Source of the DNA: an uncultured Phycisphaerales bacterium
GTDB lineage: Bacteria > Planctomycetota > Phycisphaerae > Phycisphaerales > UBA1924
Direction: 5' to 3'
NCBI GenBank assembly: GCA_937995595.1
Contig: CALKJW010000020.1
Span: 47,096 to 111,095, forward strand
DNA: 64,000 nt
Each line of letters opens with the position of its first letter. The stretch's first letter is position 1. A program made the position numbers and the translations under genes. Below are positions 9,679-64,000 of this stretch, piece after piece. The notes under the pieces were generated by a model, which was not told the DNA's origin, made no database searches, and saw only the letters and a list, made by a program, of their open reading frames with translations.

Positions 9679-10208
9679 TCCAGGCCGTGAAGAACGCCGT
9701 GTTCGCGCGTGTCCCGCTCGCCGCGGGCCTGACCGCGCTCTACCTGCTCATCACCGGCAACGCCGAGCCGAGCAACTTCGCCGTCGCGGCGGTGCTGGGC
9801 GTCGGGCTTTCGCTGCTGCTCCCTCCGCCCGAGACGCGCCGCAGCGCGCGCGACTGGCCCCGCATCGTCACCGCGTTCGTCGTGCACAGCCTGACCGTCG
9901 CGTGGGACGTGCTGGTCAACGGCCTGCTGGTCGCCTCGCTGGTGCTGTGGCGGCGGTCGCGAGTGCGGCCCGGACTGGTGCGCATCCGCAACGGCCACAG
10001 CACCGACATGGCCGCCGCGCTCGACGCGCACGCCGTTTCGCTCTCGCCCGGCCAACTGGTCCTGAAGATCGAGCCCGACCACTACACCACGCACTGCCTG
10101 CTCGCGCCCGAGGTTCGCGCCGAGGGCCCCGACGCCGGCGCGACACGCCGCGCCCGAATCGAACGCTTCGCCGGGAGCCGCGACGCGGCCGGAAAGGAGG
10201 CCGACTGA
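9675..10208 (+). CDS. mrpE: Na+/H+ antiporter subunit E
   Basis: MrpE-like (VRIRNGHSTDMAAALDAHAVSLSPGQLVLKIEPDH); overlaps mrpD by 4 nt. Confidence 0.8.
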   Translation: MIQAVKNAVFARVPLAAGLTALYLLITGNAEPSNFAVAAVLGVGLSLLLPPPETRRSARDWPRIVTAFVVHSLTVAWDVLVNGLLVASLVLWRRSRVRPGLVRIRNGHSTDMAAALDAHAVSLSPGQLVLKIEPDHYTTHCLLAPEVRAEGPDAGATRRARIERFAGSRDAAGKEAD

Positions 10209-10210
10209 TC

Positions 10211-10555
10211 ATGCCCGCGTTCCTCCACTACACGCTCGACGCCGCGATTCTCGCGCACCTCGCGCTGCTCGCGGCGTGCATCGTGCGCCTGTGCCGCGGC
10301 GAGAACGCCTTCGACCGCCTGCTGGCCGTCGATCTCATCGGCACGCTGCTGCTCGCCATCGCGGTGCTCTTCGCCATCCGCGAGGGTCAGAGCCTCGTCC
10401 TGGACGTGGCCCTCGGCCTGGCCGCCGTCGGCTTCACGGGCAGCATCCTGCTGGCCAAATACGTGGCCGACGACGCGGTGATCACAGGCTCGGGCGACGC
10501 CGCGGCCGACCCGGACCGGCCGCGTTCGCGCGCCCACACGGAGAGCAGCCCATGA
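10211..10555 (+). CDS. mrpF: Na+/H+ antiporter subunit F
   Basis: CIVRLCRGENAFDRLLAVDLIGTLLLAIAVLFAI; operon position. Confidence 0.8.
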   Translation: MPAFLHYTLDAAILAHLALLAACIVRLCRGENAFDRLLAVDLIGTLLLAIAVLFAIREGQSLVLDVALGLAAVGFTGSILLAKYVADDAVITGSGDAAADPDRPRSRAHTESSP

Positions 10556-56461: not shown

Positions 56462-58729
56462 ATGAACCATCAACCACCCAACTCCGATTCGACTCCGGTG
56501 TGCGATCGGCCGCAGACCGACTCGCTCGGTACGACCTCCAGTCGAACCAGTTGGATCTGCTGGAAGTGCATGGTCGTGCTGGCCGCCGCCGCACTGACAG
56601 GCGCGTATGTGCTGTGGACGATCGCGACCGGCGAGACAGCCCGCGAGCGATGGGGCACGGTCGCGAGTGATCACGCCGACCTCGTCGCCGCGTGGCTGGC
56701 CGCGATCGGATGCATGACGGTGATCCTGTCCGCGGCCCACCGCGGGCGGTCGGGCCGGCGCACCGCCCTGGTGGTGGTCGGGCTGGTGTGCGTGGTGATG
56801 TCGTCGGGGTCGGCGTGGGTCGATCGTCGCGGCAAGAACGCCACGGAGTCGATGCGCAACGCGCTGGTGGGCATCGCGCCGACGTACGCGGTGAGTCTCG
56901 AGGCACGCCGGCACTGGCAACTCCCCAGCGACGCGCCCCCTGACGACCCCTTGTACCTCGACCTGATCGAAGCCCAGAAGCGCTGGCTCCGCGTCAACCC
57001 GGCCGTGGCGGACATCTACACCTTCCGCAAGGACGCGGACGGACGCTGGCGGCTGATCGTGGACTCGGAGACCGACTACGACCGGAACGGGGTCTACGAG
57101 GGCGAGCGCGAGCAGCGGACGGCCATCGGCGAGATCTACGAGCACACCACCGAGGAACTCGACCGCGCGCTGGCCGGCGAGCACGTGTTCTTGGACGTCC
57201 CGGAATCGGACCGGTGGGGCAGTTGGGTGTCGGCCTTTGTTCCGATGCGGAACCCGCAGGGGGAGATCGAAGCCGTCCTGGGCGTGGACTTCCCCGCCGA
57301 TTCGTGGAACAGCACAATCGCCGAGGCGCGACTGGGCACGATCACGTACCTCGCGGTGATCGTCGTCACGATCACCGCGGGCGGCCTGCTGCAGATCGCC
57401 TCGTTGCGCCGGATCGACGAGAGTGCACGCGTGGGGAAACTGCTCCGCGCCCAGACCGAAGCGCTCGACCGGCAGAACGCCCTGCTCGAACGGCGCGGCA
57501 GGGAACTGGCCGCCGCCACCGCCGCGGCCGAGTCCGCCAACCGCGCCAAGAGCGAGTTTCTCGCGAACATGAGCCACGAGATCCGTACGCCGATGACGTC
57601 GATCCTCGGCTACGCCGATCTGCTGCGGTCCCACGATCTGAGCGCGGCCGAGATCGCCGAGCACGTGGAGATCATCCGGATCAACGGCGAGCACCTGCTT
57701 TCCATCATCAACGACATCCTTGACCTGTCGAAGATCGAGGCCGGGATGATGTCCGTCGAGCGCCGCGAATGCCGGATCGTCGCCCTGCTCGGCGAGGCCG
57801 CAACGACCGTGCGGCTGCGCGCCGAGCAGAAGGGACTCGACCTTCGGGTCGTGCTCGCGGACCCGATCCCGGAGCGCATCTTCTCCGACGATCTCCGCGT
57901 GCGCCAGATCCTCATCAACCTGCTCGGCAACGCGCTGAAGTTCACCGATCGCGGGTCCATCGAGATGGTCGCGCGGTACAGCGGCCCCGCTTCACCCGAG
58001 CCGCGACTGACGATCGAAGTCCGCGACACCGGCATCGGCATCCGCCCCGAGCACATGGAGCGCCTCTTCCAGCCGTTCGCACAGGCCGACGGTTCGACCA
58101 CGCGGAAGTACGGCGGGACCGGTCTGGGACTTGTCATCTCGCGGCGGCTGGCGCGGGCGCTGGGCGGCGACATCACCGTCCGCAGCGAGTTCGGGCGCGG
58201 CAGCACGTTCACCGTCACGCTCGCGACCGGCGATCTCGACGGCGTGCCGCTGATCGAGACGATACCGGCATCGTCGATCATCAGCAGTGAGACCCCGGCG
58301 CCGGCACCCGCCGCGGTGCGACTCCGCGGCCGAATCCTGCTCGCCGACGACGGCCCGGACAACCGGCGCCTGCACGCCGCGATCCTCGAACGCCGCGGGG
58401 CGACGGTCGTCGCGGTCGGGGACGGACAGGCCGCCGTGGACGCCGCGCTCCACGCCGCCGCGTCGGGCGAGCCGTTCGACCTGATCCTCATGGACATGCA
58501 GATGCCCGTTCTCGACGGCTACCAGGCCACCCAGGCCCTGCGCGAGCGGGGCGTGCGCACGCCGATCATCGCGTTCACGGCGCACGCGCTGCAGGACGAC
58601 CGTCGGCGGTGTCTGGTGTCGGGCTGCGACGACTACGCGACCAAGCCCATCGACCGCCAAGCGCTCATCCGACTTTGCGCGCGCTGGTTGGAGCACGGTC
58701 AACAACACGCGACCGCCAAGGCGGCCTGA
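56462..58729 (+). CDS. Hybrid sensor histidine kinase / response regulator
   Basis: H-box [24 protein letters not shown]-box [11 protein letters not shown]-box [16 protein letters not shown] domain [18 protein letters not shown]...[22 protein letters not shown]. Confidence 0.95.
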
Positions 58730-58805: not shown

Positions 58806-60524
58806 ATGTTGATCAGCGCCGCACTGTGTGCATCGGTCATGTCCACCACCACCCCACAGCCCGCCGACTCGACCAACCCTGCGCCGCCCGGCGCGTTGCC
58901 GCGCGCGACGCGCCCGGAGGTGTACGCCGCGAACGGCATGGCCGCGACCAGCCACCCGCTTGCGACGCAGGTCGCGCTCGACGTGCTCAAGGCGGGCGGG
59001 TCCGCCGTCGATGCCGCGATCGCGGCCAACGCCGCGCTGGGGCTGATGGAGCCGACCGGATGCGGCATCGGCGGCGACCTGTTCGCCATCGTGTGGGACC
59101 CGTCGACCAAACGGCTGCACGGGTACAACGGCTCGGGCCGCGCGCCGGCGGAACTGACCATCGAGTTGGTCACGTCGCGCGGGTTGACGGAGATCCCCCG
59201 CAGCGGCCCGCTGCCCGTCACCGTCCCCGGCTGCGTCGACGGCTGGTTCGCGCTGCACGAGCGGTTCGGCCGACGGCCGATGCGCGACAACCTCGCGCCG
59301 GCCATCGCCTACGCGCGGGACGGGTTCCCCGTCTCGCCGGTGATCGCCGACGGCTGGTCGTCGAATGTCCGCGCGTTTGCGCGCATGCCGAACTTCCGCG
59401 AGCAGTTCACGATCGACGGGCGAGCCCCGCGCGCGGGCGAGATCTGGAAGAACCCCAACCTCGCCGGCACATTGCAACGCATCGCCGACCACGGCCGCGA
59501 CGGGTTCTACACGGGTCACGTGCCCGAAACGGTCGAGCGGTTCATCTCCGAGCAGGGCGGCGTGCTCGCCGCGGCGGATTTCGCGGCCCACCGCGGCGAA
59601 TGGACCGATCCGGTCAGCGCCAACTACCGCGGCTACGACGTGTGGGAACTGCCGCCCAACGGCCAGGGCATCGCCGCGCTGCAGATCCTGAAGATTCTGG
59701 AAGGCTTCGACCTGCGGTCGATGGGCTTCGGCAGCGCGGACCACGTGCACGCATTCACCGAGGCAAAGAAACTCGCGTTCGAAGACCGCGCGCGGTTCTA
59801 CGCCGACCCGGCCTTCAACCCCGCGCCGGTCGCGCACCTCATCAGCGCCGAGTACGCCGCGCAGCGGCGCTCGCTCATCGACCTGTCGCTCGCGGCGAAG
59901 ACCGTCGAGCCGGGCGCGATCCCCGCGGGCGCCGACACGATCTATCTCACGACCGCTGACTCCTCGGGCATGATGGTCTCGCTCATCCAGAGCAACTTCC
60001 GCGGCATGGGCAGCGGGATGGTCCCGCCGGGTCTGGGCTTCATGCTCCAGAACCGCGGCGAGCAGTTCGCGCTCGACCCGGCGCACCCCAACGCGCTCAG
60101 ACCCGGCAAGCGGCCGTTCCACACCATCATCCCGGCGTTCATCACCCGGGACGGCGCGCCGTGGATCAGTTTCGGCGTCATGGGCGGGGCGATGCAGCCC
60201 CAGGGCCACGCGCAGATCGTCATCAACCTCATCGACTTCGGCATGACGCTGCAGCAGGCTGGCGATGCGCCGCGCATCCACCACGACGGCTCGACCGAGC
60301 CTGTCGGCGTCGCGCTCAAGGTCATGGCCGATGGCGGCGTGCTGAGCCTCGAGCCCGGATTCCCCGATGGCACGATCCGCGAACTCGAACGCCGCGGGCA
60401 CGTCATCAGGCCGCTGGCGACGCCGTACTTCGGCGGGTACCAGGCGATCATGCGCGACCCGAAGACCGGCGTGTACGTCGGGGCATCGGATTCCCGCAAG
60501 GACGGGCACGCGGCGGGGTATTAG
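58806..60524 (+). CDS. ggt: Gamma-glutamyltransferase
   Basis: AIAANAALGLMEPTGCGIGGDLFAIVWDP; TIYLTTADSSGMMVSLIQSNFRGMGSGMV. Confidence 0.93.
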   Translation: MLISAALCASVMSTTTPQPADSTNPAPPGALPRATRPEVYAANGMAATSHPLATQVALDVLKAGGSAVDAAIAANAALGLMEPTGCGIGGDLFAIVWDPSTKRLHGYNGSGRAPAELTIELVTSRGLTEIPRSGPLPVTVPGCVDGWFALHERFGRRPMRDNLAPAIAYARDGFPVSPVIADGWSSNVRAFARMPNFREQFTIDGRAPRAGEIWKNPNLAGTLQRIADHGRDGFYTGHVPETVERFISEQGGVLAAADFAAHRGEWTDPVSANYRGYDVWELPPNGQGIAALQILKILEGFDLRSMGFGSADHVHAFTEAKKLAFEDRARFYADPAFNPAPVAHLISAEYAAQRRSLIDLSLAAKTVEPGAIPAGADTIYLTTADSSGMMVSLIQSNFRGMGSGMVPPGLGFMLQNRGEQFALDPAHPNALRPGKRPFHTIIPAFITRDGAPWISFGVMGGAMQPQGHAQIVINLIDFGMTLQQAGDAPRIHHDGSTEPVGVALKVMADGGVLSLEPGFPDGTIRELERRGHVIRPLATPYFGGYQAIMRDPKTGVYVGASDSRKDGHAAGY

Positions 60525-60862: not shown

Positions 60863-60934
60863 TTTGACGGGAAGGCGTATCACGTAGGCGCAGCGTGCGC
60901 CATGGGCTCAGGTAGGCCGCGCGTGCGTCGCCGA

Positions 60935-60970: not shown

Positions 60971-63487
60971 ATGAGCCGATCCAAGTACCGCGAATCACGG
61001 ACGCTGGTCCGCCGATTGTGCCGTTTGCCGGGTGAGAGCCGGGCCGAGTTCAAGGCGAAGGTCGCCCGACTGCGTGAGCACTTCGAGCGCTTCAACACCG
61101 ACGTGTCGGATCTGTGCCAGTGGTTGATGGGCCTGCGGCGAATCGCCGGCGACCGGAATCGCCCGGAATCGTTCGGGCTTCTTGGGGACTTCATTCTCGA
61201 TCCGGGGTGGGACCATGGTGTGTTGGACGAGGCGACGGCCGACCGCTGGAGGCTGGCGGTCTGGGATGCCGCGTTCGGCTTTCGCAACGAGCCAACCGTC
61301 CGCGGCCAGACGCTGCCCGAGCATCTCCTCAGTGCGTTGCGTCAGGCCGCGCGGCACGCCCCGCACACGGACGAGGGGAACTCGAACGCCCGGCGCCTCA
61401 CGGCGCGGCTCGGCCGGCTGCAGCCTGCCCACCGCCTCGTGCTCTACAAGGCGGCGGCCGAGTGGGTCGTCGCCCGCTACCTGCGCGGCCTGCAGAACTG
61501 GGTCCGGCAGCACGCCGAATGGGTCAAGGAGAAGCAGGAGTGGGAAGCCGCGCACCCGGCGCTCACACCCGAGGTGCGTGAGCGGTTCACGGCCGTGTTT
61601 CGATCGCTCCGCGACCCGGAGCGAGACGGCCGACCCGGGCTGCGACGCAAACGGCCGCGCATCTGCCCGGCGTACCGGCTCGCCGAGAACATCGACAACT
61701 GCGTCTACGCGGGCCAGAAGGGCCACGCCCCGCTGTGCTGGAAGTACTCCGAGTTCCTGAAGGAGAACGAGAAGCGCAACCGCTCGTTCAACAAGAAGCG
61801 GTTCTCCGAAGATATCAAACGACTCATCGCGTTGTGCGTCGCGAACAGGACGCGTCCGAGCAAGTTCTTTCTCAGCCCGCGCGCGCCCGACACGATCTTC
61901 AAGGACAACGAACCGGGCAAGCGACCAAGGCTCTTCCAGAGGTTGAAGGACAACTGGTCCGCCTACCTCGACCACATGAACCTCACCGAGGACACCATCC
62001 TGCTCCGCCAGCGGCTCCCGCACTGCACGACACTCGGCGACCTCTGGGAGAAGTCGCGGTGCGAGTGCAACCCGCACACCGAACTCTGCCTTGAGTACAA
62101 GAGAGCGCTCGCTTCACTGCCCGAGGAAGTGCGCGCGCTGGAGGGCGTGTACAGAGATTGGAGGGCGCTGTATCTCGCCGGGCCGCGCAAGCCCGAGTTC
62201 CGATATCCCTCGTCCCGCGACCTCCCCATGCCCAAGATCTTCGGGGACGAGTTCTTCGAGGTGGACATGTCGAACTCCGTGCTGCGTCTGCGGCTGGACG
62301 ACATGGCCAAAGGCGAGTGGGTCGAGTTCGGCTTTGTCCCCTGGCCGCGCGGCTACACCCCCTCGCGAGACGACGTGCACGTCACGAGCATCCACATGAA
62401 CTTCATCGGCACGCGCGCACGGGCCGGGTTCCGATTCGCGGTTCCCCACCGGCAGGGTCGCTTCACCTGCTCTCAGGACCAGATCGACGAACTCCGGAGT
62501 CAGCGCTTCCCGCGTCAGGCGCAGGACCAGGAGTTCCTCGATGCGGCGCGCACGCTGCTCCTCGATTCGTTCCGCGCCGGGGCCGCCGCCGCGAGGCAAT
62601 CACTCCGCGTGCTCAGCGTCGACGTCGGCATGACGGGTGCGGCCTGCGCCGTCTACGAGGGCTCGCGGCACGTCACCGATGAAGTTCTTCCCATCATCAA
62701 GGCCGACCGTCTCTACGTCGGAACGACCAGGCCCCCCGCACCCGGGCCCGGGGGCAAGGTGCCACCGACCCCGCCCGGCCTGCTGGTCGTCGGCGACGGC
62801 GACACGCGCGGCCTGCGAAGGGAGCACGTCGGCCGACACCTGGCCGCCGTGGCCCGCGGCGCCGCGGCCGTCGCCGAACGCCGACAAGCCCACAGTGAGG
62901 CCCAGAGCACCATCCGCGACAGCGACTTTCGAGGCCTCAAGCGCCATGTCGCGTGGATGATCCGCGACTGGGTGCGGCTCAACGCCGCCGCCATCGTGCG
63001 CGCCGCGGAAAAACACGAATGCGACGTCATCGTGTTCGAGAGCCTGCGCGGCAAGCGCCAGCCGACCTACGACAAACTCGGCGACGAGAGCGAGCGCAAG
63101 AAACAGGAAGGGGCGATCTTCGCCTACGGCCAACTCCGACGAAAGGTCACGGAGAAGGCTGTCGAGCGCGGGATGCGGACGGTGACCGTTCCGTACCACA
63201 AGTCGTCACGGTTCTGCTCGAAGTGCGGGCACGAGCAGCACAACGCCGGTCGCCTCAGAAAGAACAAGGAGCGCCGGAAGTTCATCTGCGAGTGCGGCGA
63301 GCAGAGTTCGGCGCCGGCCGCGCGCGGCCGCGGCCAGGCCAGAGGCGCAGCGCCGGCCGCGCTCGGCGGTTGCCCGTGCAGAAACGAAATCAACAGCGAC
63401 GCCAACGCGGCGCGTGTACTGGCGATGGTCTTCTGGGGCCGGATCCGCTTGCCCAAACCGCTGCCGGAAGACGCCACGAGGGCTTGA
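60971..63487 (+). CDS. cas12: Compact Cas12-family (type V) CRISPR effector nuclease, candidate Cas12l/Cas-pi-like or unassigned subtype
   Basis: RuvC-I RVLSVDVGMTG (Asp codon 62621), RuvC-II DVIVFESLRG (Glu codon 63038), RuvC-III NSDANAARVLA (Asp codon 63398); Zn-ribbon CSKC...CEC...CPC; unrelated helical N-terminal half; CRISPR array immediately downstream. ORF opens at 60902 but start MSRSKYRESR at 60971 preferred. Confidence 0.9.
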   Translation: MSRSKYRESRTLVRRLCRLPGESRAEFKAKVARLREHFERFNTDVSDLCQWLMGLRRIAGDRNRPESFGLLGDFILDPGWDHGVLDEATADRWRLAVWDAAFGFRNEPTVRGQTLPEHLLSALRQAARHAPHTDEGNSNARRLTARLGRLQPAHRLVLYKAAAEWVVARYLRGLQNWVRQHAEWVKEKQEWEAAHPALTPEVRERFTAVFRSLRDPERDGRPGLRRKRPRICPAYRLAENIDNCVYAGQKGHAPLCWKYSEFLKENEKRNRSFNKKRFSEDIKRLIALCVANRTRPSKFFLSPRAPDTIFKDNEPGKRPRLFQRLKDNWSAYLDHMNLTEDTILLRQRLPHCTTLGDLWEKSRCECNPHTELCLEYKRALASLPEEVRALEGVYRDWRALYLAGPRKPEFRYPSSRDLPMPKIFGDEFFEVDMSNSVLRLRLDDMAKGEWVEFGFVPWPRGYTPSRDDVHVTSIHMNFIGTRARAGFRFAVPHRQGRFTCSQDQIDELRSQRFPRQAQDQEFLDAARTLLLDSFRAGAAAARQSLRVLSVDVGMTGAACAVYEGSRHVTDEVLPIIKADRLYVGTTRPPAPGPGGKVPPTPPGLLVVGDGDTRGLRREHVGRHLAAVARGAAAVAERRQAHSEAQSTIRDSDFRGLKRHVAWMIRDWVRLNAAAIVRAAEKHECDVIVFESLRGKRQPTYDKLGDESERKKQEGAIFAYGQLRRKVTEKAVERGMRTVTVPYHKSSRFCSKCGHEQHNAGRLRKNKERRKFICECGEQSSAPAARGRGQARGAAPAALGGCPCRNEINSDANAARVLAMVFWGRIRLPKPLPEDATRA
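63311..63362. repeat. 13-bp direct repeat pair GCGCCGGCCGCGC within the effector Zn-ribbon insertion
   Basis: GCGCCGGCCGCGC at 63311-63323 and 63350-63362, in-frame spacing of 39 nt. Confidence 0.6.
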
Positions 63488-63512
63488 CAACCGGGGCTCG
63501 TTGGGGGATACT
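63484..63512 (+). promoter_or_regulatory. Sigma70-like promoter for the intergenic RNA (-35 TTGACA, 17 nt, -10 GATACT)
   Basis: TTGACA 63484-63489 (overlaps effector stop codon), 17-nt spacer, GATACT 63507-63512. Confidence 0.6.
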
Positions 63513-63518
63513 CAAGTG

Positions 63519-63705
63519 CCTTCCGAGTCGAAGGGGGCCTCATGGCCTTCTGCTTGGAACACGTCCCACGGTCGCTTTGGCCAAAGGACCGGACCCCAAG
63601 CCGTTGAAGGCAAAGCCGTGTTTTTGCGGGCTCTTTGCCATGTCTGCACTCGCTTTTTGCCGAACGAATCGGCCCCAAGTCGCTGCATTCAAACGACTTG
63701 CGAGA
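63519..63705 (+). ncRNA. Candidate tracrRNA (anti-repeat-bearing structured RNA)
   Basis: Anti-repeat AAGCCGTGTTTTTGCGGGC 63613-63631 pairs with repeat nt 10-28 (18/19 incl. 2 G:U); second block GCACTCGC 63646-63653 perfectly complementary to repeat nt 4-11; hairpin CGGTCgCTTT-GGCC-AAAGGACCG 63569-63591; 7-bp stem CAAGTCG/CGACTTG 63676-63700. Ends are estimates. Confidence 0.7.
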
Positions 63706-63710
63706 GGTCT

Positions 63711-64000
63711 GGTGCGAGTGCCCGCAGAAACGCGGCCTCTGACACCGAAACCGATGCGATGGCGGAGAGGGCCTTTGGTGCGAGTGCCCGCAGAAACGCG
63801 GCCTCTGACACCGGTGAAGGTTGAGACGTGGACGGCCATGCTGGTGCGAGTGCCCGCAGAAACGCGGTCTCTGACACCCACCAGCGCGCGCCTCCTGCAG
63901 TGCGCCCGGTGCGAGTGCCCGCAGAAACGCGGCCTCTGACACCGCCACGCATGGCGAGGCGGGCGGCGCTGGCGGTGCGAGTGCCCGCAGAAACGCGGCC
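63711..64000 (+). CRISPR. CRISPR array, 36-bp repeats, 29-30-bp spacers, truncated by window end
   Basis: Repeat GGTGCGAGTGCCCGCAGAAACGCGGCCTCTGACACC at 63711-63746, 63777-63812, 63843-63878 (1 mismatch), 63908-63943, 63974-64000 (partial); spacers 63747-63776, 63813-63842, 63879-63907, 63944-63973 all unrelated to each other. Confidence 0.98.

Follow-up and report, generated by a model that had tools for sequence, protein, structure and literature searches.

A window of 64,000 nucleotides, the whole stretch of DNA analysed here, ends in a CRISPR array preceded by one long reading frame. Which kind of effector does this frame encode, is the effector likely to be active, and what might it target? 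An initial annotation had described an intact frame of 838 aa (861 aa from an upstream Met), RuvC Asp/Glu/Asp residues with a Cys-rich ribbon, an adjoining CRISPR array and a tracrRNA-like element, and had taken the whole to point to a CRISPR-associated compact Cas12, for instance Cas12l (Cas-pi) or an undescribed relative. Each described element was recovered (Table 1), and the identification as a Cas12 effector stands. The subtype has to be revised: the locus is almost certainly a type V-G CRISPR-Cas system with a diverged Cas12g, not a new subtype.

Table 1. Features of the cas12g locus, in window coordinates.
Feature	Position	Strand	Description
cas12g	60971..63487	+	838 aa; RuvC triad, Helical-1 and Nuc zinc fingers; profile and PDB matches
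Second knuckle of the Nuc ribbon with ~25-residue insertion (about residues 776-800)	63296..63384	+	alignment with relatives
Sigma-70-like tracrRNA promoter, TTGACA-17-GATACT	63484..63512	+	motif scan; 0.0 expected from shuffles
Putative tracrRNA	63519..63659	+	between cas12g and array; predicted ends
Anti-repeat	63615..63653	+	17-bp core 63615-63631; second arm 63646-63653 pairs near the repeat's 5' end
CRISPR array, repeat GGTGCGAGTGCCCGCAGAAACGCGGCCTCTGACACC	63711..64000	+	36-nt repeat, 29-30-nt spacers; directly downstream of cas12g
Repeats	starts 63711, 63777, 63843 (one mismatch), 63908, 63974 (cut by contig end)	+	
Spacers	63747-63776, 63813-63842, 63879-63907, 63944-63973	+	

Assignment of the effector to Cas12g

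The frame is uninterrupted to its stop codon, whether read from 60971 or from the upstream Met at 60902. The search of Cas12 subtype profiles that the initial annotation had proposed places it inside a known subtype: the PADLOC Cas12g profile matches residues 1-829 with 975 bits (E 4.8e-294) and a further PADLOC score for Cas12g is 890 bits, against 56 bits for Cas12b, 48 for Cas12u3 and 43 for Cas12f. A phmmer search of the PDB returns the Cas12g entries 6xmf, 8i16 and 8i3q at E about 1e-170, with ~46% identity to solved Cas12g across 695 aligned residues, nearly the whole length; the remaining matches at E<=1 are weak Cas12f/transposase alignments to the ribbon. With E values of about 1e-170 (PDB) and about 5e-294 (PADLOC), a chance resemblance to Cas12g is ruled out. 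The N-terminal half, which the initial annotation could not assign to a subtype, aligns as well, residues 3-272 matching the Cas12g N-terminus with E 2e-52. Pfam and NCBIfam detect the C-terminal region only (a Cas12f1-like TNB match, and weak matches of PF07282 and guided_TnpB in the last 60 aa), so the family is hard to spot without PADLOC or the PDB. An AlphaFold prediction from a 3-row alignment had a mean pLDDT of 52 and was unusable.

Two other identities for the effector were weighed against these matches. Cas12l uses a tracrRNA and falls into a size class similar to that of the 838-aa product, and these traits, together with a 36-nt repeat, would also suit Cas12l or an undescribed compact DNA-cutting Cas12 subtype. 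The full-length Cas12g match, the identity to a solved Cas12g, the presence of the diagnostic zinc fingers (see below) and PDB matches at E<=1 to Cas12g and weakly to Cas12f/transposase entries alone make this very improbable; we rejected it on the strength of the Cas12g match, more than 900 bits ahead, rather than by direct comparison with a Cas12l profile. The weak matches of the C-terminal 60 aa to PF07282 and guided_TnpB could likewise point to a TnpB-like transposon nuclease that adjoins an array by chance. Guided_TnpB reaches 36.9 bits against a cut-off of 100, and the full-length Cas12g match, an anti-repeat complementary to the repeats of the neighbouring array and a locus layout conserved in four other genomes leave that reading with practically no credence.

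Catalytic residues and the Nuc zinc ribbon

The functional residues reported for Cas12g1 (PMC10511118) were transferred to the frame through the Cas12g PDB alignment. The RuvC triad is intact, comprising Asp551 in RuvC-I (SVDVG), Glu690 in RuvC-II (VFESL) and Asp810 in RuvC-III (NSDANAA), of which the first two correspond to Asp513 and Glu655 of Cas12g1. All eight ligands of the Helical-1 zinc fingers are kept (HCCC: His252, Cys256, Cys352 and Cys364; CCHC: Cys232, Cys244, His369 and Cys373), and with the first three Nuc ligands (see below) 11 of the 12 published Cas12g zinc ligands are retained. The FRYP stretch of Cas12g1 is likewise kept. Among the contacts to repeat:anti-repeat duplex 2, Lys539, His576, His624 and Asp631 are kept and Glu541 is conservatively replaced by Asp. 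The lid motif is slightly changed, with R661/P662/P663/Y665/E666/N667 reading R/Q/P/Y/D/K in the alignment from the PDB search.

The twelfth ligand belongs to the Nuc CCCC finger. The C-terminal ribbon holds six cysteines (C749, C752, C773, C775, C801 and C803), of which C749, C752 and C773 are in place; the other three are all candidates for the fourth ligand, because an insertion of ~25 residues opens the second knuckle. This knuckle reads CEC, the insertion, then CPC, whereas Cas12g1 and four relatives have C-X2-C or C-X4-C and lack the Ala/Gly/Pro/Arg-rich insertion. Since alanine substitutions in the Nuc zinc ribbon abolish cleavage by Cas12g1 (PMC10511118), the insertion is the chief ground for doubting activity, and together with the CXC spacing it could alter the activity of the enzyme. 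A degenerate, inactive V-G locus that has lost nuclease function through its altered ribbon would account for the low-complexity insertion between ribbon cysteines and for their spacing, and would have a parallel in a relative that is seemingly decaying (L005, with an in-frame TGA at a conserved Trp and a poor anti-repeat). The 838-aa frame, the triad, the promoter, the anti-repeat and the repeats are all intact, and C749, C752 and C773 with C775, C801 and C803 still offer enough cysteines for the finger, so that we regard an inactive locus as unlikely and a functional V-G system as the better reading.

Two ideas about the DNA of the ribbon were considered. An origin of the insertion as a dispersed genomic repeat was rejected, as its matches elsewhere in the genome are only weak, GC-rich and composition-like. 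The same DNA resembles the CRISPR repeat, a likeness that was noticed post hoc and is weak, shuffles doing as well in 2% of cases for the region and 6% for the whole gene.

Guide RNAs, array and distribution

In a scan of 63300-64000, a single promoter-like site was found, and the stop codon of cas12g (63485-63487) lies inside its -35 hexamer. From its position, the tracrRNA would start ~7 nt past the -10 hexamer and end near a T-run that follows the anti-repeat. The anti-repeat:repeat duplex has a predicted energy of about -41 kcal/mol, and none of 100 shuffled repeats pairs as well; an Rfam search gave no relevant match. Four related loci (L004-L007) share the layout, with a tracrRNA region between cas12g and array, and have promoter-like pairs at the same place (9-12 of 12 matches); those of L005 and L006 lie over the stop codon, those of L007 and L004 a little way downstream of it. 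The repeats differ between the loci, and in four of the five the best partner for the anti-repeat is the repeat of its own locus. The exception is L005, the locus that also has the in-frame TGA in cas12g.

Four full repeats and one cut copy are present at the window end. Contig C20 stops at the same point, and this assembly break leaves the array incomplete. The neighbourhood is effector-only: Cas1 has no match anywhere in the 96.3%-complete genome, and other adaptation genes are absent from the near flanks. RNase III is encoded in the genome. Translations read by eye suggest a hybrid histidine kinase (56462-58729) and a gamma-glutamyltransferase (58806-60524) as upstream neighbours, and no defence genes were recognised directly upstream of cas12g.

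By analogy with characterised Cas12g, which targets RNA, needs no PAM and is unable to process pre-crRNA by itself in vitro (PMC10511118), we infer RNA targeting, collateral activity and crRNA processing for this locus; the PAM-depletion and plasmid-interference assays proposed in the initial annotation presume DNA targeting instead. The tracrRNA, transcribed from a separate promoter that overlaps the end of cas12g, would pair with array transcripts, and a host factor, plausibly RNase III, would trim the crRNA. Cas12g with the crRNA:tracrRNA would then recognise complementary phage RNA PAM-free and cut it with its single RuvC site, followed by collateral cleavage of RNA and ssDNA.

Of 392 genomes sampled across the phylum, 3 gave a cas12g match, and these belong to different families; the nine other genomes listed under the family of the present one gave none. 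This patchy distribution suggests spread by horizontal transfer. Two further cas12g loci, which may overlap the three, are in Planctomycetota MAGs (JABFGK010000001.1, L004; QEVG01000016.1, L005). Judging from these relatives, the organism that carries the locus is probably a planctomycete. In L005 the TGA, at about 6150, replaces the conserved Trp of CQW, and the anti-repeat is weak; the locus seems either to be decaying or to contain a sequence error.

A candidate phage target and comparison with known systems

Elsewhere in the genome the repeat occurs at one place, G000:C5:276629-276719 on the minus strand. Read in array orientation, this contig carries a possible spacer S6, a full repeat, spacer S5, a 3'-truncated repeat and then chromosomal genes, and it would appear to be the far end of the array that begins on C20. 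On the S6 side of the full repeat, where S6 and a further repeat would be expected, the contig continues with 1.5 kb of other sequence. A reading frame is open across the S6 position, with the product VPIERFVDDRGRHLTLDELRRREGL..., followed by a PI3/PI4-kinase-like region. The first 23 residues of this fragment correspond to positions 334-356 of 679 in phrog_241 (head morphogenesis; E 0.012). Seven weak tblastn matches to phages (E 0.1-10) all fall within the first 25 residues, and every matched protein is annotated as head, minor-head or minor-capsid. In the two matched proteins that were examined the similarity lies at the C-terminal end, so that ~300 upstream residues are absent from the fragment. 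The array end and the truncated head-morphogenesis gene with its PI3/PI4-kinase-like C-terminal region occupy G000:C5:276625-277830 (L025 2126-3331).

Judging from this arrangement, the assembler probably left the array and entered a phage genome at a spacer whose sequence equals that of its protospacer. If the assembly join holds, S6 would be antisense to the mRNA of the phage head gene, the orientation that RNA targeting requires and one that a single spacer has by chance in one case out of two. Alternatively, G000:C5:276720 may be a genuine genomic junction and not an assembly join. We give slightly less than an even chance to the join being a real protospacer, that is, to a V-G spacer antisense to the head-morphogenesis mRNA of a tailed dsDNA phage in the same assembly. 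To our knowledge, no native V-G spacer with an identified target was known previously. Exact scans of IMG/VR with spacers S1, S5 and S6 gave no match, a blastn search of phages with all six spacers returned nothing convincing, with no match beyond noise at E~4, and no Cas12g was found in the viral contigs of IMG/VR. A related Cas12g array of 11 repeats (L026, reverse complement, 9740-10401) has a spacer with an apparent 24/25-nt match to a human-gut phage without annotation (MT835520.1, E=1), the sole match from the spacers of relatives.

Few Cas12g proteins have been characterised, from two sources, and the study of one of these loci did not establish where its spacers came from (PMC10707612). 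The present locus contributes a diverged ortholog whose zinc ribbon is unusual, and the promoter layout common to five loci helps to define V-G tracrRNAs. The candidate head-gene spacer is a lead to a native V-G target; a real protospacer would point to defence against DNA phages by an RNA-cutting Cas12 that acts on the phage transcripts. What may deserve follow-up is this lead, together with the ribbon insertion.

Cas12l is a different type V family, which targets DNA and has a C-rich (CCY) PAM (PMC9724661). Cas12g1 (6XMF/6XMG, 8I16, 8I3Q; PMC10511118) shares full-length homology, the RuvC triad, the Helical-1 zinc fingers, the guide-duplex contacts and the tracrRNA dependence of the locus; at 767 aa against 838 aa and about 46% identity, it lacks the ~25-aa Nuc ribbon insertion and the residues added here in Helical 1 and Helical 2. 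The loci L004 and L005 (52-53% identity over the best segment) have the same order, related repeats ending in GACACC and a tracrRNA promoter over or close to the stop codon, but are without the ribbon insertion, and L005 has its in-frame TGA. The Karmadon Cas12g, by its description, has cas12g, a tracrRNA region and an array of 36-nt repeats and 30-nt spacers in the same order; it differs in its length (768 aa), its origin in a thermal spring and its probable host among the Terriglobia (PMC10707612). The tracrRNA between gene and array, with a 36/30 array downstream, is common to the characterised V-G loci and to the one described here.
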